DNA from: a virus
DNA: 27,029 bases
IMG/VR virus record: IMGVR_UViG_3300023174_000559
Location: 1-27,029 of that record
Direction: 5' to 3' (one strand)
A model generated the notes under the pieces. That model saw nothing but the letters and a program-made list of their open reading frames with translations. It was not told the origin of the DNA and ran no database searches. Of this stretch, positions 2,475 through 26,985 are shown piece after piece. A program made the position numbers and the translations under genes. Position 1 is the stretch's first letter; each line of letters starts with the position of its first letter.

Positions 2475-2484
2475 CTAAATAATA
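2475..2484 (+). promoter_or_regulatory. Possible T4-type late promoter
   Basis: CTAAATAATA in a 93-nt intergenic gap, resembling the TATAAATA/CTAAATA late -10 element of T4-like phages. It lies about 60 nt before the ATG at 2540, leaving a plausible leader. Evidence is one short motif only. Confidence 0.35.
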
Positions 2485-3013: not shown

Positions 3014-5107
3014 ATGAGATTCTGGCTTTTAGTGATTTTAGTTTTTGTATTGGCGTTATTTACTGCGCCAAGAGCTAAAGCACAAATACAAATTCCAGGA
3101 ACAGATTTCACACTGACACCAGTTAATGGTGGAACAGGTGGTTTAGTATCAGTACCAATTCCAGGTGGTGCTGGTTTGTCAGTTACAGTTGGTACTGGAT
3201 CCGCTGCAATTCCATTACAGGACATTCGTAGTAATCCAAATGCTGTGAACATTTCAACATGGGATGACTGGTATAATGAAGTTCCATTGGGATTTACATT
3301 CCCATTCTATGGGCGAAACTTTACTACATCATGGGCAATGACTAATGGTCTGGTTACATTTCAAAACCCAGCAACATCTGGATTGGGTGGTGCTTGCTGT
3401 GAAGGTGTAGATTTACGCACCACAACAAATTCAAGATACAATTATACCATCTATGGTCTGCATACTGATTTGTATTCTTGGAATAATAATCAATATTATC
3501 TTCGTGGTACAAATGAAATGACTTATGGGTGGTATAACTCAAGTCAGTGTTGTTCATCAAATGGTGGAAATAGTTTTGAAATTAAAATTAACTCATCTGG
3601 TTTAGTAGACACTAGAATTGCTGGTGCTATGATAAGCTGGAATAGAGTTACATCTGGTATGGCAGGTGACTTATCCAAAGGCGAATATTTCCAAGCATAT
3701 CATGGTCGAGGTATAAACATTACTCCTGGAAGTTCAAGCATTTTTAGTTGGCAAGCATTGAATGGTACTGGTGCTGTAGATTTATGCTTATCCAATCCAT
3801 TATCATCACCAACATGTCCTGGATATCAAACAGCATATTTCACTCAACAATGTTCTATAAGCGCATTGTATAACCCATCGTGTCCTGGATATGCAGAAGC
3901 GTATTTCACTCAGCAATGTACTGCTAATCCATTATACAATGTGAACTGTCCTGGATATGCATCGGCATATTTAAGTTATCAGTGTTCTTTAAACTCTCTA
4001 TACTCAACAACTTGTCCTGGATATGAACAAGCATACCTAACACAACAATGTAATATTAGTCCATTATATTCAACACAATGCTCTGGCTATCAACAAGCAA
4101 CAACACAATGCTCTGCTAATCCATTGTATGCATCTTACTGCCCAAGTTATCAAACAGCAACGACACAGTGTTCAATCAATTCCCTATACGCATCTTACTG
4201 TCCTGGATACGCATCGGCACAACTAACATGCTCAACAAATCCATTGAGTAATACTTTATGTTCTGGTTATCAGACAGCAACAAATGTTTGTTCTTCAAAT
4301 CAATTAACATATTCATATTGCCCAAGCTATACTACCACTTTGGCAAGTTGCGCAGCTAACCCACAATCGAATATTTTGTGCCCTGGATACAACCCAAACC
4401 CTCAGACGAGTACTGCATCTAGATCTTCTACAACTACTGTCTCCACAGAACAACCAACTACTACTATTAGTAGCACAGGACAAGTATCGACAGGTGTTGC
4501 TGTAGTTAGTGATTCTAATGTAAACCAAGTTGTAACTAGACAATCAACTAGCACTGATGCAGCAGCAAGTGCTGCACCTGTTAATGTGGTGAGACAAGAA
4601 CCACAAGCACAACAAACTGCTCCAGCAGCACCAACTGCTGTCGCTGCAAGACAAGAACAGAAACAAGAACAAAAAACAGAACAGAAACAAGAACAAAAAG
4701 CTGAAGACAAACCATCAGGTGGTGGTTCCACTCAAACAGCACAATCTTCGCAAAGTAGTGGAGATTCCAAACCAGCACCACAAACTGCTCGTCAAGCAAT
4801 TCAAGAAAGAAGAGAAGCAGCAGCAAGAGCCAAAGCAGTTGAAGATGGTAAAAACTTAGCAGGTAATATGGGTAAAGCTGCTGACATGGAACAACAAAAA
4901 CAAATTCAAAACGTAGTTATTGCAGCTATGGGATTTACTCCTGGATTTGATGCGTATGGTAAAACAATTGTTCCAGATGCAGCTGGTTATAAACCATTCA
5001 CAGTTTACAACAATCAAAGAACTATCGATAATAGAAGTGCGTTGAGAATGTTCGGTGGTTCAGATAGATTACACAATGAAATGGTGGAGAGTCAATACGG
5101 AAGATAG
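3014..5107 (+). CDS. Large exported Cys-repeat protein
   Basis: 697 aa, starting directly after the upstream stop. It has a signal peptide (hydrophobic residues 3-17, then APRAKA before Q24). Residues about 75-255 form a beta-rich domain with the phrase PLGFTFPFYGRNFTTSWAMTNGLVTF, reminiscent of nidogen-like (NIDO) extracellular domains. Residues 258-465 hold ten tandem repeats of about 20-22 aa with the pattern C-x9-C-[PS]-[GS]-Y. A long low-complexity Ser/Thr, Ala/Gln and Glu/Gln/Lys-rich linker follows (about 468-615), then a C-terminal segment (about 620-697) that looks like a folded domain. A phage protein carrying a Sec signal is unusual. It may be displayed on or anchored to the host envelope, or be virion-associated. 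No function is assigned. Confidence 0.75.
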   Translation: MRFWLLVILVFVLALFTAPRAKAQIQIPGTDFTLTPVNGGTGGLVSVPIPGGAGLSVTVGTGSAAIPLQDIRSNPNAVNISTWDDWYNEVPLGFTFPFYGRNFTTSWAMTNGLVTFQNPATSGLGGACCEGVDLRTTTNSRYNYTIYGLHTDLYSWNNNQYYLRGTNEMTYGWYNSSQCCSSNGGNSFEIKINSSGLVDTRIAGAMISWNRVTSGMAGDLSKGEYFQAYHGRGINITPGSSSIFSWQALNGTGAVDLCLSNPLSSPTCPGYQTAYFTQQCSISALYNPSCPGYAEAYFTQQCTANPLYNVNCPGYASAYLSYQCSLNSLYSTTCPGYEQAYLTQQCNISPLYSTQCSGYQQATTQCSANPLYASYCPSYQTATTQCSINSLYASYCPGYASAQLTCSTNPLSNTLCSGYQTATNVCSSNQLTYSYCPSYTTTLASCAANPQSNILCPGYNPNPQTSTASRSSTTTVSTEQPTTTISSTGQVSTGVAVVSDSNVNQVVTRQSTSTDAAASAAPVNVVRQEPQAQQTAPAAPTAVAARQEQKQEQKTEQKQEQKAEDKPSGGGSTQTAQSSQSSGDSKPAPQTARQAIQERREAAARAKAVEDGKNLAGNMGKAADMEQQKQIQNVVIAAMGFTPGFDAYGKTIVPDAAGYKPFTVYNNQRTIDNRSALRMFGGSDRLHNEMVESQYGR
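3785..4408 (+). repeat. Ten tandem C-x9-C-[PS]-[GS]-Y coding repeats
   Basis: Within the 697-aa protein, ten units each carry two Cys exactly nine residues apart followed by PGY, SGY or PSY, for example CTANPLYNVNCPGY and CSINSLYASYCPGY. The first four units are 22 aa (ending in YFTQQ, YLSYQ or similar); the later ones are 20 aa (ending in ATTQ or similar). The unit lengths fall into two classes, which suggests two rounds of expansion. Regular Cys pairs suggest one disulfide per unit in an exported rod. Confidence 0.9.
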
Positions 5108-5153: not shown

Positions 5154-5750
5154 ATGGCAGAAGAAATTAAAGATGTCAATAAAAAGATTGACGAAGCAGA
5201 AGCAGCAGTTAAAAAATATGCAAGTAAAGATACTGTTATCAGTATTGGTGGCTATGAATTCACACCTGCCAAATTGATGGTAGGTTTTACATTAGTTTCT
5301 TCATTACTCGGTGGTCTTTATGGTACTTTTGAAGTATACAAAGATTACATGAGTATGAAAAAGAAAATTGCTGAGTATGTTACACCTGACTTAACTGAAC
5401 TCTATAAGAAGATTGAAGTGTCAGATGCAAATAGCAGCAAGATGACTGAATATACAAATAATATTAAAAACGATTTGAAGAACGATGTTCGTAGAGTTGA
5501 GGGTGTTGTTGAAAACTTAGAAAGATCTACAAAGTCTAGTCTAAGAGATACAGATATTGCTATTAAAGAAATTAAGAAAGACTCTGATTCTACATTAAAA
5601 GAAGTCCGTAGATATAGCGATCAGAGCGTGAAAGAAGTTTCACAAGAATTAGTTAGAAATCAAAAAGAAACAACAGCGGAAATTCGTGCGTTGAGAAGCG
5701 AAGTTGATATGAAGATTAAGAAAGCATTGGATAATCCTCTGTCCAATTAA
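5154..5750 (+). CDS. Membrane/coiled-coil protein, paralogue A
   Basis: 198 aa. A charged N-terminal helix precedes the signature KKYASKDTVISIGGYEFTPAKLMV, a single TM-like segment (about residues 40-62, VGFTLVSSLLGGLYGTFEVY) and a long charged heptad-like helix (about 70-190) ending in KKALDNPLSN. It is clearly homologous to the next gene, with near-identical N-terminal 75 residues and C-terminal tail. The middle coiled coil is about 40 aa longer here. RBS AAAGGA precedes the ATG. Function unknown; a membrane-anchored coiled coil is likely. Confidence 0.72.
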   Translation: MAEEIKDVNKKIDEAEAAVKKYASKDTVISIGGYEFTPAKLMVGFTLVSSLLGGLYGTFEVYKDYMSMKKKIAEYVTPDLTELYKKIEVSDANSSKMTEYTNNIKNDLKNDVRRVEGVVENLERSTKSSLRDTDIAIKEIKKDSDSTLKEVRRYSDQSVKEVSQELVRNQKETTAEIRALRSEVDMKIKKALDNPLSN

Positions 5751-5761
5751 GGAAGAAGGAA

Positions 5762-6235
5762 ATGACAGAAAAAGTAGACCTAAATAAGAAAGTAGACGAC
5801 CTAGAAGCTGCGACTAAAAAGTATGCTAGTAAAGATACAGTAATTTCTATTGGTGGCTATGAATTCACGCCAGCTAAACTAATGGTTGCGTTTACAATTG
5901 TATCATCTACGCTAGGTGGTCTTTATGGAGCATTTGAAGTCTATAAAGATTATCAGGGTATGAAGAAAAAGATTGCAGAATATGTTTCTCCAGATTTATC
6001 TGAGATAAATAAAAAGCTGGAAGTCACTATGCAAAATAGTGAGAAATCTGTTCAATATACTCAAGACATTAAGAACGATCTAAAACAAGATATCCGTAAA
6101 CTTGAAAAAGTGGTCGAGCAGGTAGAGCGTGATGGCAAGCAACTTAATCGTGAAGTCGATCAAGATATGCGTCAAATTCGCAAAGAAATAGATAGTAAGA
6201 TTCAGAAAGCATTGGATAATCCACTATCAAAATAA
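5762..6235 (+). CDS. Membrane/coiled-coil protein, paralogue B
   Basis: 157 aa. Tandem duplicate of the preceding gene with the same order: charged helix, KKYASKDTVISIGGYEFTPAKLMV, TM-like segment (VAFTIVSSTLGGLYGAFEVY), acidic/basic coiled coil and the tail QKALDNPLSK. It differs mainly by a shorter coiled coil. RBS AAGAAGGA lies just before the ATG, only 11 nt after the upstream stop. The two products may form hetero-oligomers, which is inference from paralogy. Confidence 0.72.
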   Translation: MTEKVDLNKKVDDLEAATKKYASKDTVISIGGYEFTPAKLMVAFTIVSSTLGGLYGAFEVYKDYQGMKKKIAEYVSPDLSEINKKLEVTMQNSEKSVQYTQDIKNDLKQDIRKLEKVVEQVERDGKQLNREVDQDMRQIRKEIDSKIQKALDNPLSK

Positions 6236-6256: not shown

Positions 6257-6529
6257 ATGAATGATAAACATCTACTATGGCTGATAGGAGTTTTGCTACT
6301 AATCCCTATTGCGTTTGCGATAGTAAGTAAAGAATCATTCCGTTACCCATGTCAAGACCCTGCTAACTGGGATAAGGATATCTGCAAGTTGCCATTGTGT
6401 GATGTGAACAGAACTTGCCCAGAACATATTTTTAAAGGACAAAGAGATCCACGTCTTGGTCCACCAAAAGATGGTGAAGTTGCTAGACCAGCAGCTGCGC
6501 CAGCGTCAACTACAGGAGCATGCAAATGA
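6257..6529 (+). CDS. Small single-TM protein with Cys-rich exported part
   Basis: 90 aa. The N-terminal hydrophobic segment (LLWLIGVLLLIPIAFAIV, residues 6-23) serves as a signal anchor. It is followed by a hydrophilic part with five Cys (YPCQDP, DICKLPLCDVNRTCPEH, TGACK), which suggests disulfides outside the cytoplasm, and a Pro/Ala-rich tail. The last Cys lies next to the C-terminus. ATGA overlap with the next gene. Family not recognised. Confidence 0.6.
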   Translation: MNDKHLLWLIGVLLLIPIAFAIVSKESFRYPCQDPANWDKDICKLPLCDVNRTCPEHIFKGQRDPRLGPPKDGEVARPAAAPASTTGACK

Positions 6530-6981
6530 GCGAACCAGTTATGTATACAGAAGAGCAATTAATGGCTCGTCTGAAATTCTTCATCGGTATCTGTTTATCT
6601 TTTACCCTTGTTGGAATTGTTTTCGTAGTTCTTTATTCTATTATCTTCGTCACTCAACCATTGAATGCTATCAGTCCTATCGACCAGAAGTTCTTTGAGT
6701 TGATTATTCCTATTGCTACATTCTTGACAGGTACTCTATCAGGTATTATGTTAGCAGGCGGAGATAAAGATGCGCAGAAAGAAGCACTAAAAGCAGCAAC
6801 TTCTGGTTGGACAAATAGACCAGCAACTCCACCAGCACCAATGGGTGGATTGCCACCAACTCCAGGTATGCCACCAAGACCAATGAGTATGGGTGGAATG
6901 CCAAGTATGCCTTCAATGCCATCGACATATGGTCTTGAGCCAGGAGATCCAGTAAATCGCAACACAAGAAATGATGGATAA
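6526..6981 (+). CDS. Two-TM membrane protein with Pro/Met/Gly-rich tail
   Basis: 151 aa from ATG 6526. AGGAG at 6514-6518 lies 7 nt before this ATG but only 1 nt before an alternative ATG at 6520, so 6526 is favoured. Two TM segments lie at about residues 17-43 and 60-77. A cytoplasmic or exposed tail follows, rich in Pro, Met and Gly (GGLPPTPGMPPRPMSMGG and related). Size, topology and position beside a holin-like gene allow a role in lysis, but no family signature is visible. Confidence 0.62.
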   Translation: MSEPVMYTEEQLMARLKFFIGICLSFTLVGIVFVVLYSIIFVTQPLNAISPIDQKFFELIIPIATFLTGTLSGIMLAGGDKDAQKEALKAATSGWTNRPATPPAPMGGLPPTPGMPPRPMSMGGMPSMPSMPSTYGLEPGDPVNRNTRNDG

Positions 6982-6983
6982 TC

Positions 6984-7199
6984 ATGAGTTGGTTTAGCAG
7001 CATGTTATCTGATGGAATCAATGGTTCTGTATCAAGCAAACGAGTTATAACTTTTTTGGCATTTTTAGTTTGCGCATTCGCAATGATCGCAGATATCTTC
7101 GGCTATAAAGTTACACCTGCTTTGTTTGAGTCTATGATATACATTGTTGTAGCTGGCTTAGGTTTCACTGCATCTGAAAAGTTTGCCAAAAAAGAATGA
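6984..7199 (+). CDS. Holin-like small membrane protein
   Basis: 71 aa with a short polar N-terminus (GINGSVSSKR), two TM helices (about residues 21-40 and 47-64, the second GLGFTASEKF) and a short basic tail AKKE. Similar two-TM proteins with the VSSKR...GLGFTA pattern occur in phages and are commonly listed as holins. No endolysin gene is seen in this window, so the lysis role is tentative. Confidence 0.5.
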   Translation: MSWFSSMLSDGINGSVSSKRVITFLAFLVCAFAMIADIFGYKVTPALFESMIYIVVAGLGFTASEKFAKKE

Positions 7200-9671: not shown

Positions 9672-9949
9672 ATTACGTATTGACACCTGAACAGAAAACA
9701 GATCTACAAAAAGCCATTCGTGAAATTAGCAACTCCATGGTAAGAACTGAAGCAGAACGTGATCTGATTAAAGAAATTGTCAAGGAACAATCTGACCAGT
9801 TGCAAATCCCAAAGAAAATCATTAACAAGATTGCTAAAACTTTTCATAAGCAAAGTTTGCACCAAGAAGTTGCAGACCACGAAGACTTCGTTGAATTGTA
9901 TGAGAAAGTGACCAGTGCTAATACACAGAAAAACACCACCCAACCATAA
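9668..9949 (+). CDS. dsbA: DsbA-like dsDNA-binding late transcription protein
   Basis: 93 aa. The order and spacing of KEQSDQLQIPKKIINKIAKTFHKQ and DFVELYEKV match T4 DsbA (KDELGVDGKMFNRLLALYHK ... EEVVELYDTV), a small helical protein that binds DNA near late promoters. In T4 dsbA sits beside rnh. Here rnh lies 3.4 kb downstream, separated by a metabolic cassette and one conserved gene. Assignment rests on remembered motif similarity. Confidence 0.72.
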   Translation: MNYVLTPEQKTDLQKAIREISNSMVRTEAERDLIKEIVKEQSDQLQIPKKIINKIAKTFHKQSLHQEVADHEDFVELYEKVTSANTQKNTTQP

Positions 9950-10556
9950 GCACAGTCTTTTGTATTTGATGGGTGTCACATGGAAATATGACACCATGTT
10001 CAACTCAGTATTCACAGAACATAATCTACAAGATTTGTTTTATAATGCTGGCGTAGAAACTATTGCTGTTGATTATGAATCCAGCGACACATATGAATCA
10101 TTGGTTGAGGATGTGAACAAAATATCTTCAGAAGTTGACTTTATCATGGGGTATAGTTTTGGTTGTCTTCTAGCAGTGGCTACTGCGCAAACAAATACAA
10201 AGGCTATAATTTTATTGGATGCCAATTCTTTGGGTGGTAATGGTGGTAAAAACTACATTGAAGATAAAGAAACTGCTAACCAATATTTTGAAAAAGATCT
10301 AGCAGTTGTTAACAAAAAATTAAAAGACATCCCCGAAAAATTGATTATCAATCCATACAAACCAAAAACATTTTTAATTTTTAGTGACTATGGAAACAAA
10401 AATAATAATCTATGCACGCATGGTATGTATCTTGGAGCGTTAGGTAAAGTTAATAAAACAGTCATAAAAAATTCTTCTCATTATATTATGATAGAACCTA
10501 CCCGATTCGAACTTGCCAAACAAATATTAGGGATTATGAATGAACTCAATAGATAA
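9915..10556 (+). CDS. Alpha/beta hydrolase (esterase/lipase-like) 1
   Basis: 213 aa. The nucleophile elbow GYSFGC places the serine at residue 81, a likely acid is in IFSDYG (D158), and the histidine is in NSSHY (H189). The order Ser-Asp-His fits the alpha/beta hydrolase fold. There is no signal peptide. The given start is a GTG inside the end of dsbA. TTG 9960 or ATG 9969 are alternatives; the first beta strand (HSLLYLMGV) argues for a start at or before 9960. It overlaps the next gene by 17 nt. Substrate unknown; thioesterase, esterase or amide hydrolase are all possible. Confidence 0.78.
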   Translation: MLIHRKTPPNHKHSLLYLMGVTWKYDTMFNSVFTEHNLQDLFYNAGVETIAVDYESSDTYESLVEDVNKISSEVDFIMGYSFGCLLAVATAQTNTKAIILLDANSLGGNGGKNYIEDKETANQYFEKDLAVVNKKLKDIPEKLIINPYKPKTFLIFSDYGNKNNNLCTHGMYLGALGKVNKTVIKNSSHYIMIEPTRFELAKQILGIMNELNR

Positions 10557-11367
10557 TTACCCAGCTTGGAAAAATGGTAAGTATTGTAAAGTTAAAGATC
10601 TGACAGTTTCTGTTTTAGATCTTGGTTTAATTCATTGTGACGCAACGTATGATGTGCTAGCTGTGCGCAATGGCGAGATTGAAAATCTCGATGCACATCT
10701 ACGCAGGTTCATTCGTAGTTCTATAGGATGGCGCATTCCAGTTGAGTGGTCTGATAATGATATTGAAATTGTTATTCAAACACTAGCTGCCATGGCACCG
10801 ACTGACGATCTATTAGTTTGGATCGGTGTAACACGTGGTATACCAACATCTGGTAACCCAAGAGATCTAGCCAACTGTAAACCAAATCTTTTTATCTATA
10901 CTAAACCTTACTATGGGTTTAATAAAGAAAACACAGCCACAGTCTGCTTAGCCAAGCAGAAGAGAAACACTTCTATTGACCAAACGATGAAGAACTTTGC
11001 TTGGAACGATTTGAACCTAGCACAGTGGGAAGCAATTGATCGTGGTTATGATACTGCTGTATTATTGGACCATGAAGGTCTTATTACTGAAGGACCAGGA
11101 TTTAATGTTGGTTTTATTCGAGGTGGCAAAGTATATGCACCGAAGAATAATTGCCTTAAAGGTACTGTGATGGAATTGGTTAAATCCTTATGCGAAAGAA
11201 ATGGTATTTGGTTTGAGTATGGTAACATACTACCATGGTTTGCTGAAACTTCTGATGCAATGTTTTTAACATCAACAGCTGGTAATGTTATTACAGTGAA
11301 GTGTTTTGAAAATAAGTATTTTAATGAAAATGAGACTTTAACATGGTTACAACAGAAGTTAGCCTAG
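10540..11367 (+). CDS. Class IV PLP-dependent aminotransferase/lyase
   Basis: 275 aa. Fold-type IV PLP enzyme (branched-chain aminotransferase, D-amino-acid transaminase or aminodeoxychorismate lyase family). Visible are VLDLGLIHCDATYDVLAVRNGEI, LDAHLRRF (phosphate-binding Arg near 55), the PLP lysine in TMKNFAWNDLNLAQWEA (K151), the conserved Glu in GLITEGPGFNV (E184), and STAGNVI near 265. The length is close to the 270-300 usual for the family. Motifs do not separate the subfamilies clearly; CLKGTVMELV replaces the commoner LxGITR loop. It overlaps both flanking hydrolase genes (17 and 25 nt), so the three are probably one translational unit. Confidence 0.88.
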   Translation: MNSIDNYPAWKNGKYCKVKDLTVSVLDLGLIHCDATYDVLAVRNGEIENLDAHLRRFIRSSIGWRIPVEWSDNDIEIVIQTLAAMAPTDDLLVWIGVTRGIPTSGNPRDLANCKPNLFIYTKPYYGFNKENTATVCLAKQKRNTSIDQTMKNFAWNDLNLAQWEAIDRGYDTAVLLDHEGLITEGPGFNVGFIRGGKVYAPKNNCLKGTVMELVKSLCERNGIWFEYGNILPWFAETSDAMFLTSTAGNVITVKCFENKYFNENETLTWLQQKLA

Positions 11368-12140
11368 AACAAAATAAACATCTATTATTCCTACTACCTG
11401 GACAAAGTTTATCACCACGTGCTTTCTGGGATTTTAAACTACCAGATGGACACACGCACATAGATTATTTTCTTGGAGCAGGGATAGATGTAATTTTATT
11501 TGACCCATGTGGTTACGGAGAAAGTTCTGATTACTATCAGTATGATAGAATTGGATATGCAGACCAGATTGAATCTGCAATTAAAGAACTTAAGAAAGAA
11601 TATGTTTCTAAAACTGTTTTCGGTTTCTCTACGTCAACTGCACCTGCATTGATTGCTGGCGAAAGAGGTTTATTCGATAAGATTATTATTCATAGCCCAT
11701 CAGTTCGTATGGATAAAAGATATTATGTTGAGTTTGACACTGAATACTTTGAGACTGGTATCGAGAAACTTAAAAAAGAAAGACTTGAAAAGATTAGTGA
11801 TAAGTTGATTGGTGTGCCAAATAGAATTGATGGATGGGAACAAAAGATTCTTGATGTTGTTGGTAGCACTACATGGAAAGTTCCATCGCAACCTGTTTAT
11901 GATATTAACAATTATTGGGTTGATACAGGACAACTAGGTTTCGATCCTGCAAAGGTTCCACCGATCCTAAGCATTGTCGGTGAGTACGACTACGAGTCTA
12001 CTACAGGTGGCTATGATACCTTTAAGGGATTGTTTCCAGACTCCAAGGAGGTAATTATTCCACAGTCTACCCATTTCTCTATGTGGGAGAACTCATCGGC
12101 TCTAACTCGCTTAGAAATGATCCAATGGGTCTTGCAATAA
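11343..12140 (+). CDS. Alpha/beta hydrolase 2
   Basis: 265 aa. FLLPGQSLSPRAFWD resembles the oxyanion-hole strand, FDPCGYGESS the following loop, VFGFSTSTAPA the nucleophile elbow (S96, with Ser instead of the usual second Gly), VGEYD the acid strand (D216) and PQSTHFSMWE the catalytic His (H244). It is therefore a complete alpha/beta hydrolase with an atypical G-x-S-x-S elbow. It shares 25 nt with the aminotransferase. Substrate is not evident. Confidence 0.8.
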   Translation: MVTTEVSLEQNKHLLFLLPGQSLSPRAFWDFKLPDGHTHIDYFLGAGIDVILFDPCGYGESSDYYQYDRIGYADQIESAIKELKKEYVSKTVFGFSTSTAPALIAGERGLFDKIIIHSPSVRMDKRYYVEFDTEYFETGIEKLKKERLEKISDKLIGVPNRIDGWEQKILDVVGSTTWKVPSQPVYDINNYWVDTGQLGFDPAKVPPILSIVGEYDYESTTGGYDTFKGLFPDSKEVIIPQSTHFSMWENSSALTRLEMIQWVLQ

Positions 12141-16061: not shown

Positions 16062-16658
16062 ATGAAGACAGTTGGAGAAAAATTAGAACCATTCGTTATC
16101 ACTGGTGTTAAGCCAGGACAACCAGAAGATGCATTCTTTGCAATTGATGAGAAGTCATTCGCTGGAAAGTGGAAAGTTATTGTATACTATCCAAAGGATT
16201 TTACATTCGTGTGTCCTACTGAGATTGTAGCATATGATAAGTTGTTCCAAGATTTTGAAGATCGTGATGCAGTTCTATTGACTGGTTCTACAGACAATGA
16301 GTTCTGCAAAGTGGCTTGGCAAAAAGCACACCCAGATCTACAAAAGATTAAGCATATTCAATTTGCTGATACAGTTCGTGGTGGATATCAAACAGGCGAT
16401 GTTCCTGATACACTTGGTATTGAAACTAACTATCGTTGGAATAGAGGTTTGATTGACCAGCTTGGTGTATTCTATGAACCTGCTGGTGCTGCATTGCGTG
16501 CAACATTTATTGTTGACCCAGACAATGTTATTCAACATGTTACAGTAAACAACTTGAATGTTGGTCGTTCACCTGAAGAAACTTTGCGTATCCTTGACGC
16601 ACTTCAGACTGGCGAATTATGTGCATGTAACCGCACTGTTGGTGGAGAAACACTATAA
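16062..16658 (+). CDS. ahpC: AhpC-type 2-Cys peroxiredoxin
   Basis: 198 aa. Reduces peroxides using a peroxidatic Cys (C51 in FTFVCPTEIV). Near the C-terminus GELCACNR carries C187 and C189, matching the unusual three-cysteine arrangement of mycobacterial-type AhpC (ELCPCN), which works with AhpD rather than AhpF. Other marks are YPKDFTFVCPTE, DNEFCKVAW, GVFYEPAGAALRATFIVDP and NNLNVGRSPEETLRILDALQTGELC. It is full length for the AhpC/Prx family. The start has RBS AGGAG five nt upstream. TAATG overlap with a TerC gene, and ahpD follows. Confidence 0.95.
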   Translation: MKTVGEKLEPFVITGVKPGQPEDAFFAIDEKSFAGKWKVIVYYPKDFTFVCPTEIVAYDKLFQDFEDRDAVLLTGSTDNEFCKVAWQKAHPDLQKIKHIQFADTVRGGYQTGDVPDTLGIETNYRWNRGLIDQLGVFYEPAGAALRATFIVDPDNVIQHVTVNNLNVGRSPEETLRILDALQTGELCACNRTVGGETL

Positions 16659-17311
16659 TGATTGAGATAATTTGGGCAGTCATTGCTATTATATTAATTG
16701 ATATCGTTCTCGCAGGAGACAATGCATTAGTTATCGGTATGGCTGCAAACCGACTGCCTGAACATCTTAGGAAAAAAGCAATTCTATGGGGAACCTTTGG
16801 CGCAGTGGCGATTCGTTTCGTCAGCGTTGCGTTGTTAACATATCTGTTATTGATTCCAGGATTAAAACTTATCGGTGGCTTGGCACTGATTTACATTGGT
16901 TGGAAATTAGCATTCCAAGGTAAAGACCACAGTGTTACAGCCAAAGATACTTTCTGGGGAGCAATCGGTACTATCGTTCTAGCTGATGCAGTAATGGGTA
17001 TTGATAATGCCTTAGGTATTGCTGCAGCAGCTGGTGGTAATATTTGGTTAGTTGTGCTTGGTCTATTAATCAGTGTTCCTATTATTCTATTTGGTAGCAC
17101 TATCATCGCAAAACTATTACAGAAATATCCAGATAGCGTATTCATCGGTAGCTTTGTATTGTTCGTTGTAGCATTCAAGATGATTCTTGGAGAACCATTC
17201 TTGGATACACACTTGGACCCACTGCATGACTTTTATGAAAATGTTCTCCCATGGCTTGCTGCTATAATTATTACTGCTAAACAATATTACAGATCAAGAA
17301 TAAGGGATTAA
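16658..17311 (+). CDS. TerC-family integral membrane protein
   Basis: 217 aa with about seven hydrophobic segments. The family signatures are IDIVLAGDNALVIGMAA (residues about 12-28) and IVLADAVMGIDNALGIAAAA (about 106-125), whose acidic and Asn residues form the metal site. The closest bacterial type is YjbE-like TerC, several members of which export Mn(II) or help metallate secreted proteins. It sits between ahpC and ahpD with a TAATG junction upstream and 1 nt before the next gene. That placement points to metal and redox homeostasis. The ion specificity cannot be read from the sequence. Confidence 0.9.
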   Translation: MIEIIWAVIAIILIDIVLAGDNALVIGMAANRLPEHLRKKAILWGTFGAVAIRFVSVALLTYLLLIPGLKLIGGLALIYIGWKLAFQGKDHSVTAKDTFWGAIGTIVLADAVMGIDNALGIAAAAGGNIWLVVLGLLISVPIILFGSTIIAKLLQKYPDSVFIGSFVLFVVAFKMILGEPFLDTHLDPLHDFYENVLPWLAAIIITAKQYYRSRIRD

Positions 17312-17312
17312 A

Positions 17313-17819
17313 ATGGTATTTATAGAAACTGTTAAAGAAGCGTTGCCAGATTACGCAAAGGACACCAAGTTAAATCTTGACGCTGTGCTTTTGCGTAGTT
17401 CTCTACCTGTTGATGAAGCGATGGGATGTGCTGTCGCTGCATTAGCTGCAACTGGCAATGGTAAACTACTCGGTGTTCTACTAGCAGATGCACCAGCTGA
17501 CGCAAACGCTGCAATGACTGCTGCTAGTTTGATGGCACAGAACAATGTATGGTACCCATATGTTGAGATGGCTGATGATGAGCAACTCAAAGGACTACCT
17601 GCACAATTACGCATGAATGCGATTGCTACACATGGCGGAACTACAAAAGAGAGATTTGAATCTTACTCATTAGCTGCATCTATCGTTGGTAAGTGCCACT
17701 TCTGTGTCAAAGCACACTATGATGGATTAAAGAAGATGGGTTATACTGTCGAACAACTTCGTGATATCGGTCGCATTGCAGCAGTAATGAATGCATGCGC
17801 AAAAGTTTTAAATAGTTGA
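17313..17819 (+). CDS. ahpD: AhpD-like alkylhydroperoxidase/reductase partner
   Basis: 168 aa. The carboxymuconolactone-decarboxylase-like AhpD fold is supported by EALPDYAKDTKLNLDAVL, LRMNAIATHGGTTKERFESYSLAASIVGKCHFCVKAH and the length (AhpD about 175 aa). The active-site residues match mycobacterial AhpD by spacing: E116, C128, C131 and H135. The His between the two Cys (position 130) is Phe here, with His at 129. AhpD passes electrons from lipoylated proteins to AhpC. RBS AAGGGA. TGATG overlap with the next gene. Confidence 0.9.
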   Translation: MVFIETVKEALPDYAKDTKLNLDAVLLRSSLPVDEAMGCAVAALAATGNGKLLGVLLADAPADANAAMTAASLMAQNNVWYPYVEMADDEQLKGLPAQLRMNAIATHGGTTKERFESYSLAASIVGKCHFCVKAHYDGLKKMGYTVEQLRDIGRIAAVMNACAKVLNS

Positions 17820-18379
17820 TGTCAACAATTAAACATGAATGGTGGTCAACCCCAGTCTGGGAAGTAGAGACTGGGTTTGACGATCAATTTAATAATAAGT
17901 TGTTACAAGAAATTGCCAATATACAGGTAAGTGGGTCGCCATATAATTTTAATATCTGGAATACAAAGACTCAGAATATTTCTATATTGAGACAAAAGAT
18001 TCTTACAGTTGTGCAGGAATCAACTGCTGGTATATTCAATCCATATTTTAAATTCAATCCACAGCTAACAAGAGGTTGGGTCAATCGTCAGAAACAACAT
18101 GAACATATACCACTACACGATCATGGAAATACAGTAATGGCAGTTGTATATTACATATACACTCCAGAAAATTGTGGAGATCTACTTTTAGTTGATCCAA
18201 GAAATGCACCCCTGTGGGATAGAATTTCTGAAGGTAAAGTTGATGGGATTAAATACCAACGTATAAAACCAAAAAGTGGCAAACTAATATTATTCCCTGG
18301 ATACGTTAGTCATATGGTAGAACCGAACAAGTCTGACGATACAAGGATTAGTTTAGCGACAAATATTATAACATGGTGA
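17819..18379 (+). CDS. 2OG-Fe(II) oxygenase
   Basis: 186 aa from ATG 17819, which overlaps the ahpD stop (TGATG). The jelly-roll signature is visible: IPLHDHGNTVMAVVYYIYTP carries the first metal ligands (H100/D101/H102), DLLLVDPRNAP follows, and LILFPGYVSHMVEPNKSDDTRISLATNI carries the distal His (H165) and the 2-oxoglutarate-binding Arg (R176). It belongs with putative 2OG-Fe(II) oxygenases common in T4-like phages. Substrate unknown; a protein, nucleic acid or small molecule is possible. Its stop overlaps the next gene by 7 nt. Confidence 0.85.
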   Translation: MSTIKHEWWSTPVWEVETGFDDQFNNKLLQEIANIQVSGSPYNFNIWNTKTQNISILRQKILTVVQESTAGIFNPYFKFNPQLTRGWVNRQKQHEHIPLHDHGNTVMAVVYYIYTPENCGDLLLVDPRNAPLWDRISEGKVDGIKYQRIKPKSGKLILFPGYVSHMVEPNKSDDTRISLATNIITW

Positions 18380-19587
18380 GAGAAATGATATTTGAAGACT
18401 CAAAAGCTCCAGCTTGGATGATCAGAAAAAATGGTTATTATAAAGTTGGTAGTAAAAACTTTGTTCATAAAACTCTGGCTTTAACTGAAGCCAGTAGAAG
18501 TAAAATTTATCCTAAATGGGATTTTTGTGAAAACGTGTTTTCCAAATGTGATTGGAAAACACCAGTACAAACCAGCTTGTTAGAATTATACAAAATACGT
18601 GCGCAACAATTAAGAGATAAGTATGAATATGTTATGCTAGCGTATAGCGGTGGAGCAGATTCAGATAGTGTTCTTCATAGTTTTATTGATAATAATATCA
18701 AATTAGATGAGATAGTTATACATTGGCCAGAATCTATCTCCAAAGGTTGGAAAATTTCTCGTGATAAAAACGCAGCAAACATTTTAAGTGAATGGGAGTT
18801 AACTGCTAAACCCAAACTTGCTTGGGTTGAGAAACATTACCCAGAAATTAAAATTACATTTTTGGATATGAATACATTAACTACTGAGTATTCAGAAGAC
18901 ATGTTCACAATTGCTAATGATGCAATTGATTATATTCCAATTAAACGACAGCGACAAATTCATGCAGTATCTAGTAAATTATTAAATCAAGGTATCAATG
19001 CATGCATCATTTACGGAATTGATAAACCGACATTTAATATAATTAATAATGAGTTTTGTGTTTTGTTCATTGATAGAATGACGCAAGTTGTATCTGATAT
19101 CGCTGAAGGAAAAGAACGTAATATTGAATATTTTTATTGGGCAGAAGATTTACCAGAACTTTTGATCAAACAAGCACAAATATTCTATGCATATTTCAAA
19201 CAAAATCCACAATTACTTAGATTAGTTTTTCGCAGGGATAATAATGGTGTAGTTACATATAGACCACCAGAGGAAGATGCCGATATTTTAAGAGATTTGA
19301 CTGCTAAATTAATATATCCTACATGGGATACCAATCTATTCCAAGCAAGTAAAGCGAGGAATGTTATCACAGCAGAACATTTTGATTTTTTTAGATATGC
19401 AAATTTCGGAGATTCAAGATTTCGTGATTCTCATTTGAGTGCACTTACTACACAATTAAACTTAATTGATGATAAGTATTTTATTGGTGGTAGGAGACCA
19501 GCTAATCGTGGATGTAGCTATATTGCTTTTATTTCTGGAAAATATTCTCTGGGTCCTATCAACCCAATTATTATGAAAAATGATTAA
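18373..19587 (+). CDS. PP-loop ATP pyrophosphatase-type enzyme A
   Basis: 404 aa. The PP-loop AYSGGADSDSVLHSF (about residues 89-103) is the ATP-binding SGGxDS motif used by adenylate-forming enzymes (asparagine synthase, TilS/TtcA, PAPS reductase, QueC families). Upstream is a unique N-terminal region. Downstream are LDEIVIHWPES and several Trp/Tyr-rich blocks. No CxxC zinc or Fe-S motif of TtcA is seen and no glutaminase domain precedes it. An in-frame start at 18385 is possible. It is a diverged paralogue of the next gene. Reaction unknown: adenylation followed by amidation, thiolation or ligation is inferred. Confidence 0.8.
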   Translation: MVREMIFEDSKAPAWMIRKNGYYKVGSKNFVHKTLALTEASRSKIYPKWDFCENVFSKCDWKTPVQTSLLELYKIRAQQLRDKYEYVMLAYSGGADSDSVLHSFIDNNIKLDEIVIHWPESISKGWKISRDKNAANILSEWELTAKPKLAWVEKHYPEIKITFLDMNTLTTEYSEDMFTIANDAIDYIPIKRQRQIHAVSSKLLNQGINACIIYGIDKPTFNIINNEFCVLFIDRMTQVVSDIAEGKERNIEYFYWAEDLPELLIKQAQIFYAYFKQNPQLLRLVFRRDNNGVVTYRPPEEDADILRDLTAKLIYPTWDTNLFQASKARNVITAEHFDFFRYANFGDSRFRDSHLSALTTQLNLIDDKYFIGGRRPANRGCSYIAFISGKYSLGPINPIIMKND

Positions 19588-20737
19588 TAAAAACTTAGGT
19601 TATTATGTTTGCGATGGTATCGAGTTTTCATCGAAGGTAGATGCTTGTCTTTATGGTAAAACAGTAAACAAACCAGTTAACTGGATTTTTCATAACGATG
19701 AGTTTTCCAGATTCCCATGGAATATAGAACCACAACAAACTCTAGACGAATTATATGATAGAAGAGCCAGAGAACTAAGAGAGAAGTATGATTACATTAT
19801 CTTAAGTTTCTCTGGTGGTTCTGATACAAATAATATCCTTGAAAGTTTTATTCGTCAAGGATTGCATATTGACGAGGTTGTGACTAATCACATAACTTCA
19901 GCAACCAAATCAACAACAGTCCTCAATCCAAATATTAAAGATTCGTGGAACTTTGCTGCTGAGCATGACTTGCAAGCAGTTCCAAGATTAAAATACATTC
20001 AAGAAAAATGCCCAAGAACTAAAATAACAGTTCTGGATGTTAGTGAAGTCGTTTTAAATTCAATGAATGTATTTGATGATGTTGATTGGGTTCTTCATCG
20101 CAATGACCATCTTTCTATTGGGCAACTGTTCAGATATAACTATTTTCACTTCGGCGAGATGAAGAAACAGTTTGATAAGAATCTAAAAATTGGATTGATA
20201 GTTGGTCTTGATAAACCGAAACTGGTAATCAAAGGTGATAACAATTTCTATATCTATTTCCCAGATTCAGTTGTAAATATCACCACTATCAATGACTTCA
20301 ATCAGGACTACACCAATCTAACTACAGAACTATTTTACTGGGGTAAAGAAACTTTACCGATGCTCGCCAAACAAGCACACACAGTGAAGAGATGGCTAGA
20401 AACAAACCCACATTTCCAACAATATTGGAAGTCTAGCACGTTCGCCACTGTTAGAACGCACCAAGAACAACTACTAAGAAATTTAATATATACTACTTGG
20501 AACGATAATTGGTTTCAGGTAAATAAATCAACAAGTTGGTTCAATACTGAATTTGATACATGGTTTAAAAATAATCCAAATATGAAACGAGAATTGGCTA
20601 TGTGGCAGCGAGGTATTGATTACCTATCCAAACAGTTACCTGAATATATTAGCTATAATGAACAGGGTAGACCTGACGCTATGAAACAATTTAAGCATGA
20701 ATATAAAATTGGTATGATGAAAAGAAAGTTTGTATGA
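19580..20737 (+). CDS. PP-loop ATP pyrophosphatase-type enzyme B
   Basis: 385 aa. The PP-loop ILSFSGGSDTNNILESF (about residues 72-88) follows the same N-terminal layout as enzyme A (TLDELYDRRARELREKYDYI against SLLELYKIRAQQLRDKYEYV). Shared blocks include YGIDKP/VGLDKP, FYWAEDLPELLIKQA/FYWGKETLPMLAKQA and YPTWDTNLFQ/YTTWNDNWFQ. The pair thus arose by duplication and divergence. The overlap with A is 8 nt and with the next gene 4 nt. Possibly a heterodimer or two steps in one pathway. Confidence 0.8.
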   Translation: MINKNLGYYVCDGIEFSSKVDACLYGKTVNKPVNWIFHNDEFSRFPWNIEPQQTLDELYDRRARELREKYDYIILSFSGGSDTNNILESFIRQGLHIDEVVTNHITSATKSTTVLNPNIKDSWNFAAEHDLQAVPRLKYIQEKCPRTKITVLDVSEVVLNSMNVFDDVDWVLHRNDHLSIGQLFRYNYFHFGEMKKQFDKNLKIGLIVGLDKPKLVIKGDNNFYIYFPDSVVNITTINDFNQDYTNLTTELFYWGKETLPMLAKQAHTVKRWLETNPHFQQYWKSSTFATVRTHQEQLLRNLIYTTWNDNWFQVNKSTSWFNTEFDTWFKNNPNMKRELAMWQRGIDYLSKQLPEYISYNEQGRPDAMKQFKHEYKIGMMKRKFV

Positions 20738-21882
20738 ATATTGCTCTACTGTCAAAATCTTCAAGTTATCAACATCTTGCTAAAAAATTTATAGATCAAG
20801 GACATACTGTTGAAATGTTCTATGACATGTCAATTAAACTAAGTACTAAACCAAAGTTTTTTATGGCATCGGGAATTCCTGTATGTAGAAATAGCTATAT
20901 GCACAGTTTACTTAGCAATAACAAAATTCCATATTTTTTCGTCAATAATAAATCCACCGAGTATGAGAATGATAAGTTTTTAACTAAGAAAATGTTAAGA
21001 GAACTTAACATACCAACTCCGAATGGTATTTTGGTTACAGGTGCTGAATTAAAAACCAATTTTAATACATACGCTATACCATTTGTAATTAAAATAAATT
21101 ATGCTTATTTTTATGGTAGACAAACTATTGTTGTCACGGAAGAAAATAAGGAAGAGGTATACAAATTTCTATTCAATAAAAGCATTTATCATATAAAAGA
21201 CGACGCAAGTATTGTTATTGAAGACTACGTTGAAATCGATAGAGAATATTCATATCACGCACTATTCAACTATAACTGCTGGAGATTCTTCGGAGCAGCC
21301 AGAGATTACAAAAAGATTGAAGATGGTGATGAGGGATATAACTCTGTTAGTTGCGGAGCATACTCAACACAAGAAGTTGATGAAATTGTTCACACCTATG
21401 CTGACAAAATATACAAGTACTTTAAGAAGATTAACCTTATGTATCGTGGGTTTATTTTCTTGGGGATTGCTGTAAGAAAAGATGGGACTCCGATGGTTCT
21501 TGAAATCAATACAAGAAGTGGCGATCCAGAGTTACAGGTTATGGTAGAATGTATAGAAAATGATTTAGCCAGTTTATTCTTAAATGCAAGCTGTGATTAT
21601 GTTTTACCACAAATTAAATTTAATAGAAAACAAGCAGTAACAGTTTCTTTGTTAAACCAACATTATGATTGGACAATCCCAGCATATGATTTGCCAGATT
21701 TAAAAGATATACCACCCAATATAATTTACAGTAAAGACCAATTTCCTGATGGTTTGAAACATGGGGTTTTGACTGCAGTTTCAGATACAAAAGAAAAAGC
21801 AAGTAAAATTATCTACGATTATTTGAACACCCAATATATTGGGCAGTATAGATATCGTAATGATATAGGTATACTAAAATGA
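20734..21882 (+). CDS. ATP-grasp ligase (PurD-like C-terminal half)
   Basis: 382 aa. ATP-grasp fold. The C-terminal catalytic block LEINTRSGDPELQVM (E257, N259, R261, D264, E266) closely recalls GARS/PurD (EFNVRFGDPE). FVIKINYAYFYGRQTIVV is the ATP-binding lysine region and IVIEDYVEIDREYSYHAL the ATP-lid strands. It is shorter than PurD and its N-terminus differs, so it may ligate another amino acid or carboxylate. ATGA overlap with PP-loop enzyme B. The family joins a carboxylate to an amine with ATP; the substrates here are unknown. Confidence 0.83.
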   Translation: MNIALLSKSSSYQHLAKKFIDQGHTVEMFYDMSIKLSTKPKFFMASGIPVCRNSYMHSLLSNNKIPYFFVNNKSTEYENDKFLTKKMLRELNIPTPNGILVTGAELKTNFNTYAIPFVIKINYAYFYGRQTIVVTEENKEEVYKFLFNKSIYHIKDDASIVIEDYVEIDREYSYHALFNYNCWRFFGAARDYKKIEDGDEGYNSVSCGAYSTQEVDEIVHTYADKIYKYFKKINLMYRGFIFLGIAVRKDGTPMVLEINTRSGDPELQVMVECIENDLASLFLNASCDYVLPQIKFNRKQAVTVSLLNQHYDWTIPAYDLPDLKDIPPNIIYSKDQFPDGLKHGVLTAVSDTKEKASKIIYDYLNTQYIGQYRYRNDIGILK

Positions 21883-21897
21883 AAAGAAACCTTTTAT

Positions 21898-21907
21898 CTA
21901 AATAATA
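21898..21907 (+). promoter_or_regulatory. CTAAATAATA motif before iscU (possible late promoter)
   Basis: Same ten bases as at 2475, in the 27-nt gap before iscU. If used as a late -10, transcription would start at about the iscU ATG (21910), giving a leaderless mRNA. I therefore doubt that it is the promoter of iscU alone. Confidence 0.25.
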
Positions 21908-21909
21908 GT

Positions 21910-22296
21910 ATGGCATATTCAGACAAAGTTATCGACCATTACGAAAACCCAAGAAATGTTGGATCGTTATCAAAGGACGACCCAAGTGTTGGCACAGGTA
22001 TGGTTGGTGCTCCTGCTTGCGGTGACGTAATGAAACTGCAAATTAAGGTTAATGATGATGGTATCATTACCGATGCCAAGTTTAAAACATATGGTTGCGG
22101 AAGTGCAATTGCTTCGTCTTCACTGGTAACAGAGATGGTAAAGGGAATGTCTATCAAAGATGCAGCCCAAATTAGAAACAGCCAGATCGCTGAGGAGCTT
22201 GCACTACCACCTGTTAAAATTCACTGCTCGATTTTAGCAGAAGATGCCATTAAAGCAGCAGTTAAAGACTACGAACTAAAGTGTTCTTGCAAATGA
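21910..22296 (+). CDS. iscU: IscU-type Fe-S cluster scaffold
   Basis: 128 aa, same length and numbering as E. coli IscU. The cluster ligands are all present: C37 and D39 (VGAPACGD), C63 (YGCGSAIA), H105 and C106 (VKIHCSIL). The LPPVK chaperone (HscA) recognition motif is at residues 99-103. The tail ends in two extra Cys (KCSCK). It probably builds 2Fe-2S clusters in the infected cell from host IscS sulphur. No RBS is visible before the ATG. The ATGA junction with iscA implies co-translation. Confidence 0.95.
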   Translation: MAYSDKVIDHYENPRNVGSLSKDDPSVGTGMVGAPACGDVMKLQIKVNDDGIITDAKFKTYGCGSAIASSSLVTEMVKGMSIKDAAQIRNSQIAEELALPPVKIHCSILAEDAIKAAVKDYELKCSCK

Positions 22297-22598
22297 TTAC
22301 AGTTACAGAATCAGCAACATCTAAGATTGCAGATCTACTCGCAGAAAACCAAGAGCCATACCTTCGCATATCTGTAAAGGGTGGTGGCTGTTCTGGTTTC
22401 TCCTATGCATTTGACTTTGAATCCCAGAAACAAGAAGATGATTTTGAGATTGACAAAATCGTAGTTGATTGTATGAGCATGCAATATCTCCAAGGTGCAA
22501 CTGTTGACTTCGAACAGAAGATGTTTGAGTCAGCATTCAAAATCTCCAATCCCAACGCAAAACAAACTTGCGGTTGCGGTTCTTCCTTCGCTGCCTAA
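22293..22598 (+). CDS. iscA: A-type Fe-S cluster carrier (IscA/ErpA-like)
   Basis: 101 aa from ATG 22293, chosen because it overlaps the iscU stop (ATGA); a codon at 22281 is in frame but lies inside iscU. The three conserved cysteines are C33 (GGGCSGFSY) and C93/C95 (QTCGCGSSF). Length and motif order match IscA/ErpA, which carry Fe-S clusters to targets. Together with iscU it forms a minimal assembly module. No IscS or ferredoxin gene is seen here. Confidence 0.94.
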   Translation: MITVTESATSKIADLLAENQEPYLRISVKGGGCSGFSYAFDFESQKQEDDFEIDKIVVDCMSMQYLQGATVDFEQKMFESAFKISNPNAKQTCGCGSSFAA

Positions 22599-26451: not shown

Positions 26452-26525
26452 TCCCGAATGGTGTAGTGGTAGCACAGCAGACTTTGACTCTGTTAGTATA
26501 AGTTCGATTCTTATTTCGGGTGCCA
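26452..26525 (+). tRNA. tRNA-Gln (TTG)
   Basis: Acceptor TCCCGAA/TTCGGGT with a 1:72 T-T mismatch, D arm GTG/CAC, anticodon stem GCAGA/TCTGT with loop CTTTGAC (anticodon TTG), T arm ATAAG/CTTAT with loop TTCGATT, and encoded CCA. Confidence 0.9.
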
Positions 26526-26529
26526 TATA

Positions 26530-26588
26530 GAAGCACACTTTGCACAGTGAAAGCCTGTCCCAATGAACTTGAGAGGGTAGTGTGTTTC
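26530..26588 (+). ncRNA. Unassigned hairpin RNA between tRNA genes
   Basis: GAAGCACACT (26530-26539) pairs along ten bases with AGTGTGTTTC (26579-26588), with one G-T pair. The 39-nt interior can form small stems (CAA/TTG, CCC/GGG). It does not match a standard tRNA cloverleaf: no T loop TTCRA or anticodon arm is seen. May be a tRNA-array RNA or a decayed tRNA. Confidence 0.4.
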
Positions 26589-26599
26589 AATATGGTTTT

Positions 26600-26673
26600 G
26601 GGTGTATAACTTAGTGGTAAAGTAACTGGCTTTTAACCAGTAAACCAGAGTTCGATTCTCTGTGCACCTACCA
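26600..26673 (+). tRNA. tRNA-Lys (TTT)
   Basis: Acceptor GGGTGTA/TGCACCT, anticodon stem ACTGG/CCAGT with loop CTTTTAA (anticodon TTT), T arm CAGAG/CTCTG with loop TTCGATT, discriminator A and encoded CCA. Confidence 0.92.
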
Positions 26674-26675
26674 AT

Positions 26676-26750
26676 GGTGTCTATGATGTAGTGGTAGCAT
26701 TAGGGATTGTGATTCCCTCCGTATGAGTTCGATCCTCATTAGACACCCCA
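26676..26750 (+). tRNA. tRNA-His (GTG)
   Basis: Acceptor GTGTCTA/TAGACAC with the His-specific extra G at -1 (26676) opposite C73 (26747). Anticodon stem AGGGA/TCCCT with loop TTGTGAT (anticodon GTG). T arm ATGAG/CTCAT with loop TTCGATC, and CCA encoded. Confidence 0.94.
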
Positions 26751-26751
26751 T

Positions 26752-26827
26752 GCAACTTTAGCTGATGTGGTCATAGCGGTGGTCTGAAGAACCATTGAAG
26801 TAGGTTCGATTCCTACAGGTTGCACCA
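26752..26827 (+). tRNA. tRNA-Phe (GAA)
   Basis: Acceptor GCAACTT/AGGTTGC, anticodon stem GTGGT/ACCAT with loop CTGAAGA (anticodon GAA), T arm GTAGG/CCTAC with loop TTCGATT, discriminator A and CCA. Confidence 0.93.
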
Positions 26828-26828
26828 T

Positions 26829-26903
26829 ACCCGATTAGCTCAGTGGTAGAGCAATCGCTTGATAAGCGATAGGTGAGTGGATCGTTACCACTATCGGGTA
26901 CCA
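26829..26903 (+). tRNA. tRNA-Ile (GAT), unusual T loop
   Basis: Acceptor ACCCGAT/ATCGGGT, anticodon stem ATCGC/GCGAT with loop TTGATAA (anticodon GAT), T stem AGTGG/CCACT and CCA. The T loop reads ATCGTTA instead of the usual TTCRANN, so position 54 is A and 58 is T. Confidence 0.88.
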
Positions 26904-26910
26904 AGTTTAT

Positions 26911-26985
26911 GCAGGATTAATTCAGTGGTAGAATGTTTCGTTGCCAACGAAAATGTCATCGGTTCGAACCCGATATCCTGCTCCA
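26911..26985 (+). tRNA. tRNA-Gly (GCC)
   Basis: Acceptor GCAGGAT/ATCCTGC, anticodon stem TTTCG/CGAAA with loop TTGCCAA (anticodon GCC), T arm ATCGG/CCGAT with loop TTCGAAC, discriminator T and encoded CCA. Confidence 0.94.

Follow-up and report, generated by a model that had tools for sequence, protein, structure and literature searches.

Outer-membrane disruption at phage lysis is the job of spanins, among which the two-component systems, such as lambda Rz/Rz1 and T7 gp18.5/18.7, occupy a late position in the lysis region and combine a coiled-coil membrane protein with a lipoprotein partner (PMC6139136). The i-spanin is a type II membrane protein (N-in, C-out) with a periplasmic coiled coil. 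In T4-like phages, the lysis genes are not clustered (PMC6139136). Another envelope-directed system consists of the phage curli genes, CsgG and CsgF, which are known from HTVC008M and Melnitz; the functions proposed for them include lysis, aggregation and exclusion (PMC9004378, PMC9599517). Here we describe a set of genes, denoted A-B-C, from a 27 kb virus record (IMGVR_UViG_3300023174_000559; the entire stretch of 27,029 nucleotides is hereafter called the window), which very probably represents a late, exported module acting on the host envelope. The features of this locus are listed in Table 1.

Table 1. The A-B-C genes of the window, their upstream motif and the segments of protein B
Feature	Position in window	Strand	Basis
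CTAAATA in CCTAAATAA, a late-promoter-like motif 58 nt upstream of A	2475..2481	+	Motif statistics in relatives
Gene A, small exported protein, 157 aa	2540..3013	+	Adjoins B; family conservation
Gene B, modular exported repeat protein, 697 aa	3014..5107	+	Open reading frame; sequence and relatives
Gene B, signal peptide, residues 1-23, predicted cleavage AKA^Q	3014..3082	+	Sequence; core conserved in relatives
Gene B, N-terminal beta domain, residues 70-238, swappable module	3221..3727	+	AlphaFold2; comparison with L031
Gene B, residues 258-459, ten Cys-pair repeats predicted to form a helical array	3785..4390	+	AlphaFold2 and motif count
Gene B, disordered linker rich in Ser/Thr/Gln/Lys/Glu, residues 464-593	4403..4792	+	pLDDT mostly <45 (AlphaFold2)
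Gene B, conserved C-terminal segment, ending in FGGSDRLHNEMVESQYGR	4811..5104	+	Alignment of relatives; HTVC115P match
Gene C1, C-terminus ALDNPLSN, with a single membrane segment and a long coiled coil	5154..5750	+	Neighbour reading
Gene C2, paralogue of C1, C-terminus ALDNPLSK	5762..6235	+	Same cluster as C1

The first-pass annotation of the window described the product of gene B as an exported protein with a Sec signal, a NIDO-like beta domain, ten Cys-pair repeats and a long Gln/Lys/Glu linker, an architecture unusual for a phage. Most of this description is borne out. The protein begins with a classic Sec signal, MRFWLLVILVFVLALFTAPRAKA^Q, and rule-based calls find a hydrophobic core in the signal region of 88 of 90 distinct relatives of B and an N-terminal K/R in 88 of 90. 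The protein contains exactly 10 strict C-x9-C-[PS]-[GS]-Y units, which start at residues 258, 280, 302, 324, 346, 366, 386, 406, 426 and 446, that is, with a spacing of 22 residues four times and then 20 residues five times. Among 10,000 shuffled versions of the repeat region, each had at most 2 strict units, and the region holds 15 C-x9-C pairs compared to a shuffle mean of 1.7. In an AlphaFold2 model built on a 25-sequence alignment, the beta domain (about 70-238) is predicted confidently (pLDDT mostly 75-92), the repeats form a regular helical array (pLDDT mostly 80-91), residues 461-593 (the linker) appear disordered, and the C-terminus is of low confidence. The combination of export and disulfide repeats is supported across about 90 relatives.

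The NIDO assignment fared worse and amounts to a resemblance. It has no Pfam support: no family, NIDO included, was matched by 25 members of the B family at E≤0.01, and the protein from the window itself (P0001) had no match even at E≤1. A PHROGs search with B gave no match either, sequence and profile searches against solved structures returned low-complexity matches only, and comparison of the B and A models with the PDB (Foldseek, VIA-align) produced nothing above background, which does not show that either protein has a new fold. The nearest match to the beta domain is found in cyanophage S-SRM01, in a block of tail-fibre genes (Foldseek E 4e-5, profile E 1.5e-4). A literature search on pelagiphage spanins and on NIDO in phages turned up nothing that covers the B family.

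The B proteins are modular. Over the last 95 amino acids, B of the window and its relative in contig L031 are 97% identical, yet their N-terminal domains are of different types, and altogether 26 pairs of relatives share at least 75% of the C-terminus while differing in the type of the N-terminal domain. The number of repeats also varies among the relatives, with pairs identical in their flanks differing by 10 vs 11 and by 9 vs 11 repeats. Judging from these comparisons, B seems to consist of a constant base, a stalk whose length can be adjusted and a head that binds a ligand. Swapping of the N-terminal part on a near-identical C-terminus, along with variation of stalk length, resembles the evolution of adhesins and receptor-binding proteins, and this likeness, as well as that of the beta domain to one from a cyanophage tail-fibre block, suggests an alternative that we regard as credible though rather unlikely, namely, that B is a late surface factor. 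Such a factor would reside on or just inside the outer membrane, where its swappable domain would mask phage receptors, sparing the progeny from cell debris or excluding sister phages, or else it would glue infected cells together. The adhesin-like role put forward in the first-pass annotation is, accordingly, plausible. The operon, however, includes neither an outer-membrane pore nor a surface anchor, and a search of eight large relatives for another copy of the beta domain found none.

Relatives of B are abundant among viruses. An initial scan of viral contigs gave 48 relatives, and a scan with the family alignment raised the number of viral contigs carrying them to at least 597. In tblastn searches against cultured phages, B, its NIDO-like part and its repeat part detected no relative. 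Among 84,980 bacterial and archaeal species genomes, there were 2 matches, both in metagenome-assembled bins. A T4-type gp23 capsid gene is present in 7 of 8 long B-carrying contigs (162-184 kb), and the closest cultured relatives of these gp23 proteins, at about 63% identity, are from the Pelagibacter phages Mosig and HTVC008M and the Methylophilales phage Melnitz. The carriers of B are a large family of uncultured aquatic phages.

What the first-pass annotation missed is that B belongs to a three-gene late operon that, in some relatives, is found inside lysis cassettes. Clustering of all proteins from the fetched loci, combined with reading of the gene neighbourhoods, shows that A immediately precedes B in 87 of 99 loci and that, in most loci, a member of the C family is the next or next-but-one gene after B. 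The gaps within A-B-C are a few bases, that between A and B being usually 2 nt, and the neighbourhood beyond these genes differs between loci. Thus, A-B-C is a conserved three-gene operon with B in the middle. Protein A consists of a signal peptide, a Pro-rich segment and a domain with 4 invariant Cys; it has a partial match to phrog_20531 (function unknown), and its structure model is weak (mean pLDDT 60). The C proteins have one membrane segment followed by a long helical or coiled-coil tail, and NPL occurs within the final 9 residues in 77 of the 78 distinct members. The positive charge flanking the membrane segment is richer on the C-terminal side in 71 of 78, so that, by the charge rule, the coiled coil would lie on the cytoplasmic side (C-in).

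Several other genes of the window deserve mention. A membrane/coiled-coil protein with a weak DUF4407-like match (1307-2446) is encoded just upstream of A here and in many relatives, and its homologue in Mosig comes after a 'putative glucosaminidase' gene. After C2, there are three small membrane proteins (6257-7199); the first two, known as the 'YPCQDPANWD' protein and a membrane protein, have relatives in MW202675, again located after the C-type gene. Further upstream lies a SegE-type GIY-YIG protein (885-1310; Pfam 112 bits), for which the label of the best PHROG, 'NAD synthetase', is probably an error of the library. By sequence inspection, positions 16062-22598 are dense in metabolic cargo, including a peroxiredoxin, a TerC-like membrane protein and AhpD-like, 2OG-Fe oxygenase-like, ATP-grasp-like and IscU/IscA-like proteins. 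Two adjacent paralogous PP-loop-like proteins (18373-19587 and 19580-20737) may, with the ATP-grasp protein, make up a small gene cluster for biosynthesis or modification. An aminotransferase class IV-like protein is flanked by two alpha/beta-hydrolase-like proteins (9915-12140), and six consecutive tRNA genes (Gln, Lys, His, Phe, Ile, Gly) are located at 26452-26985.

The operon can be traced to cultured phages through gene A. The A profile matches Mosig, HTVC115P, HTVC202P, CRP-810 and MW202481, in each case with an E-value of 1e-21 or better, and in most of the matching phages, a long B-type protein adjoins A together with a C-type protein ending in -NPL. The cultured podophages and Mosig keep the order of A homologue, B-type and C-type. 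The sets from cultured pelagiphages (HTVC115P gp54-53-49, HTVC033P gp46-45-44, HTVC202P gp24-25-26, Mosig 00202-00200) share with the window the gene order, a homologous A, a long exported B-type protein and a C-type protein with the -NPL end, but their B-type proteins lack the CPGY repeats and have a different beta domain (CBM_4_9-like in some) and an acidic linker. The weak CBM_4_9 likeness of the podoviral B N-termini is a further argument for the late surface factor. HTVC115P connects these sets directly to the family of the window: its C2 homologue is 40% identical (E 3e-26), and the gene after A has a C-terminal segment that matches the B family profile with E 4.7e-14; as this match is partly to the linker, synteny bears much of the weight for homology. 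The cultured proteins of these sets are annotated only as hypothetical or 'carbohydrate binding'. Among related entries, the label 'transport protein tonB' of UOF77515 from MW202481, a B-type protein, is likely wrong, and so is 'lysozyme' for CRP-207 gp73 (L137:3292-3873) and CRP-810 gp51 (L053:5165-5587), which are C-type coiled coils ending in -NPL; the latter labels were dropped as evidence of lysis.

The timing of expression was addressed through promoter-like motifs. The T4 late promoter consensus is TATAAATA. The gp23 regions of six relatives contain 23 sense and 0 antisense copies of ATAAATA, and 28 and 0 copies of CTAAATA (combined, 51 sense vs 0 antisense), compared to sense:antisense ratios of 10:15 and 15:10 for the control heptamers GTAAATA and TTAAATA. 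We therefore take [AC]TAAATA as the putative late promoter of these T4-like relatives. In 48 of 70 distinct loci, the motif occurs within 120 nt upstream of A (antisense, 6/70). In the same interval, it precedes C once among 77 cases, and it is absent from all 75 cases for B and all 42 for ribonucleotide reductase genes. Given that the motif stands upstream of A and almost never of B or C, A-B-C is most likely transcribed late, starting from A. The first-pass annotation also proposed an exclusion factor; an early factor of this kind was dropped on account of the late promoter upstream of A. Similarly, receptor exclusion would be expected early and A-B-C is late, which weighs against the late surface factor. 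Virion genes have this late promoter as well, and this, together with the likeness of the beta domain to one in a tail-fibre block, would fit a virion component, for instance, a fibre that joins the particle in the periplasm or once lysis has occurred; the first-pass annotation had suggested a virion part assembled in the periplasm. We consider a virion component very improbable: tailed virions assemble in the cytoplasm, signal peptides and paired Cys imply export away from that site, and the constant neighbours with which B travels are the exported A and the membrane protein C rather than tail genes.

A possible connection to lysis comes from the neighbours of A-B-C in a subset of loci. In L041, A-B-C is followed by a holin-like gene and then Phage_lysozyme (116.8 bits), and in L038, by a holin-like gene and then Peptidase_M15 (55.3 bits), with B containing CPGY repeats in both. 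Elsewhere, HTVC033P encodes Amidase_2 at a distance of about 1 kb upstream of A, M15 overlaps the end of C in HTVC023P, Phage_lysozyme lies a few genes downstream of B in MW202481, and in Mosig, GTA_holin_3TM (holin only) is found just upstream of A. In several T4-like loci, GH19-like proteins with a Pfam score just below the cut-off are encoded 4-6 genes from B. The late surface factor leaves such holin and endolysin neighbours unexplained. Endolysins are not generally enriched around B: a recognised endolysin is present within six genes of B in only 8 of the 80 loci with enough genes, with none in the window, and A-B-C is distant from the annotated endolysin of both HTVC202P and Baldr. The lack of a nearby endolysin in most T4-like loci, including the window, counts against a role in lysis, although this absence is weak evidence given that T4-like phages have no lysis clusters.

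The proximity of exported disulfide proteins to holin-like genes, the late operon and the variable, sensor-like domain of B are also compatible with a regulator of lysis timing, that is, a periplasmic sensor with a role like that of T4 RI, in which B would sense an external or envelope ligand via its exchangeable domain and signal to the holin. This is an improbable scenario inasmuch as a stalked protein of 700 aa is large for such a role, no sequence link to RI or to holin partners was found, and many loci have no adjacent holin.

All six frames were scanned for lipoboxes, with T7 gp18.7 recovered as the control. The complete genomes of HTVC202P and Baldr yielded no lipoprotein, and AP013540, HTVC033P (first 50 of 53 kb) and MW202481 yielded minus-strand ORFs only. 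With no convincing lipoprotein among them, the scanned A-B-C phages appear to lack a canonical o-spanin. Lipoboxes were found in 0 of 71 A and 3 of 90 B proteins. In HTVC202P and Baldr, C is located just before the terminase gene, the position of the spanin genes in T7.

Taken together, these observations lead us to favour, with the chances put at slightly less than even, a late envelope-spanning lysis module that disrupts the outer membrane or otherwise helps release. For this arrangement, we infer the contacts among A, B and C, the ligand of B, the orientation of C and the role at the outer membrane. Late in infection, A and B would be exported via Sec and acquire disulfides in the periplasm, with C placed in the inner membrane. 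B would serve as a length-adjustable tether, with its conserved C-terminus attached at the C/A side of the module, its linker and Cys-repeat stalk spanning the periplasm, and its exchangeable N-terminal domain bound to a host-specific envelope component, possibly, an outer-membrane glycan or protein, or peptidoglycan. Once the holin and endolysin have acted, the envelope-spanning complex would help break the outer membrane. Three observations speak against a lysis role: A has no lipobox, the charge pattern of C is unfavourable, and heads are swapped, domain swapping being commoner in surface-recognition proteins than in known spanins. In its most ambitious form, the proposal is that A-B-C takes the place of spanins in many aquatic phages and disrupts the outer membrane without a lipoprotein, by means of a host-matched, ligand-binding, length-tunable disulfide-repeat tether; this form is credible though rather unlikely.

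A-B-C is widespread, late and exported, it is found in the lysis cassettes of several compact phages, and a canonical lipoprotein spanin was not detected in the carriers scanned. If B is a surface factor rather than part of a lysis module, A-B-C would constitute a large family, so far unannotated, that exchanges its modules fast and reshapes the envelope of aquatic bacteria under infection.

Of the known systems, phage curli resemble A-B-C in being an exported envelope module in related T4-like phages, but no sequence relation between the two was found. A curli component was dropped from consideration in view of the absence of CsgG: PF03783 was not found in 8 large A-B-C contigs (possibly incomplete) or in Mosig, HTVC115P, HTVC202P, CRP-810 and MW202481, and this absence of genes with a proposed aggregation or exclusion role from the carriers checked is, again, consistent with a late surface factor. 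Conversely, gene A was not found in the two CsgG carriers checked (HTVC008M and Melnitz). In this small set of few related genomes, CsgG and gene A never occur in the same record, and they could be alternative envelope modules. The S-SRM01 protein QPX48297 has a predicted beta domain similar to that of B but differs in showing no signal peptide and no repeats and in its location in a virion gene block. The two-component spanins share with some A-B-C relatives the late position in the lysis region and, more generally, the combination of a coiled-coil membrane protein (C) with exported partners (A and B); the location of C before terminase in some podophages is a specific likeness to T7. We do not classify A-B-C as a spanin because a lipoprotein partner was sought and not found. 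A-B-C further departs from the spanins in having three components and in the very large exported subunit B with its repeats and swappable domain, and the topology of C may differ from the N-in, C-out arrangement of the i-spanin. A-B-C would thus open or alter the host cell at release by a route unlike those of the phage lysis proteins known so far.
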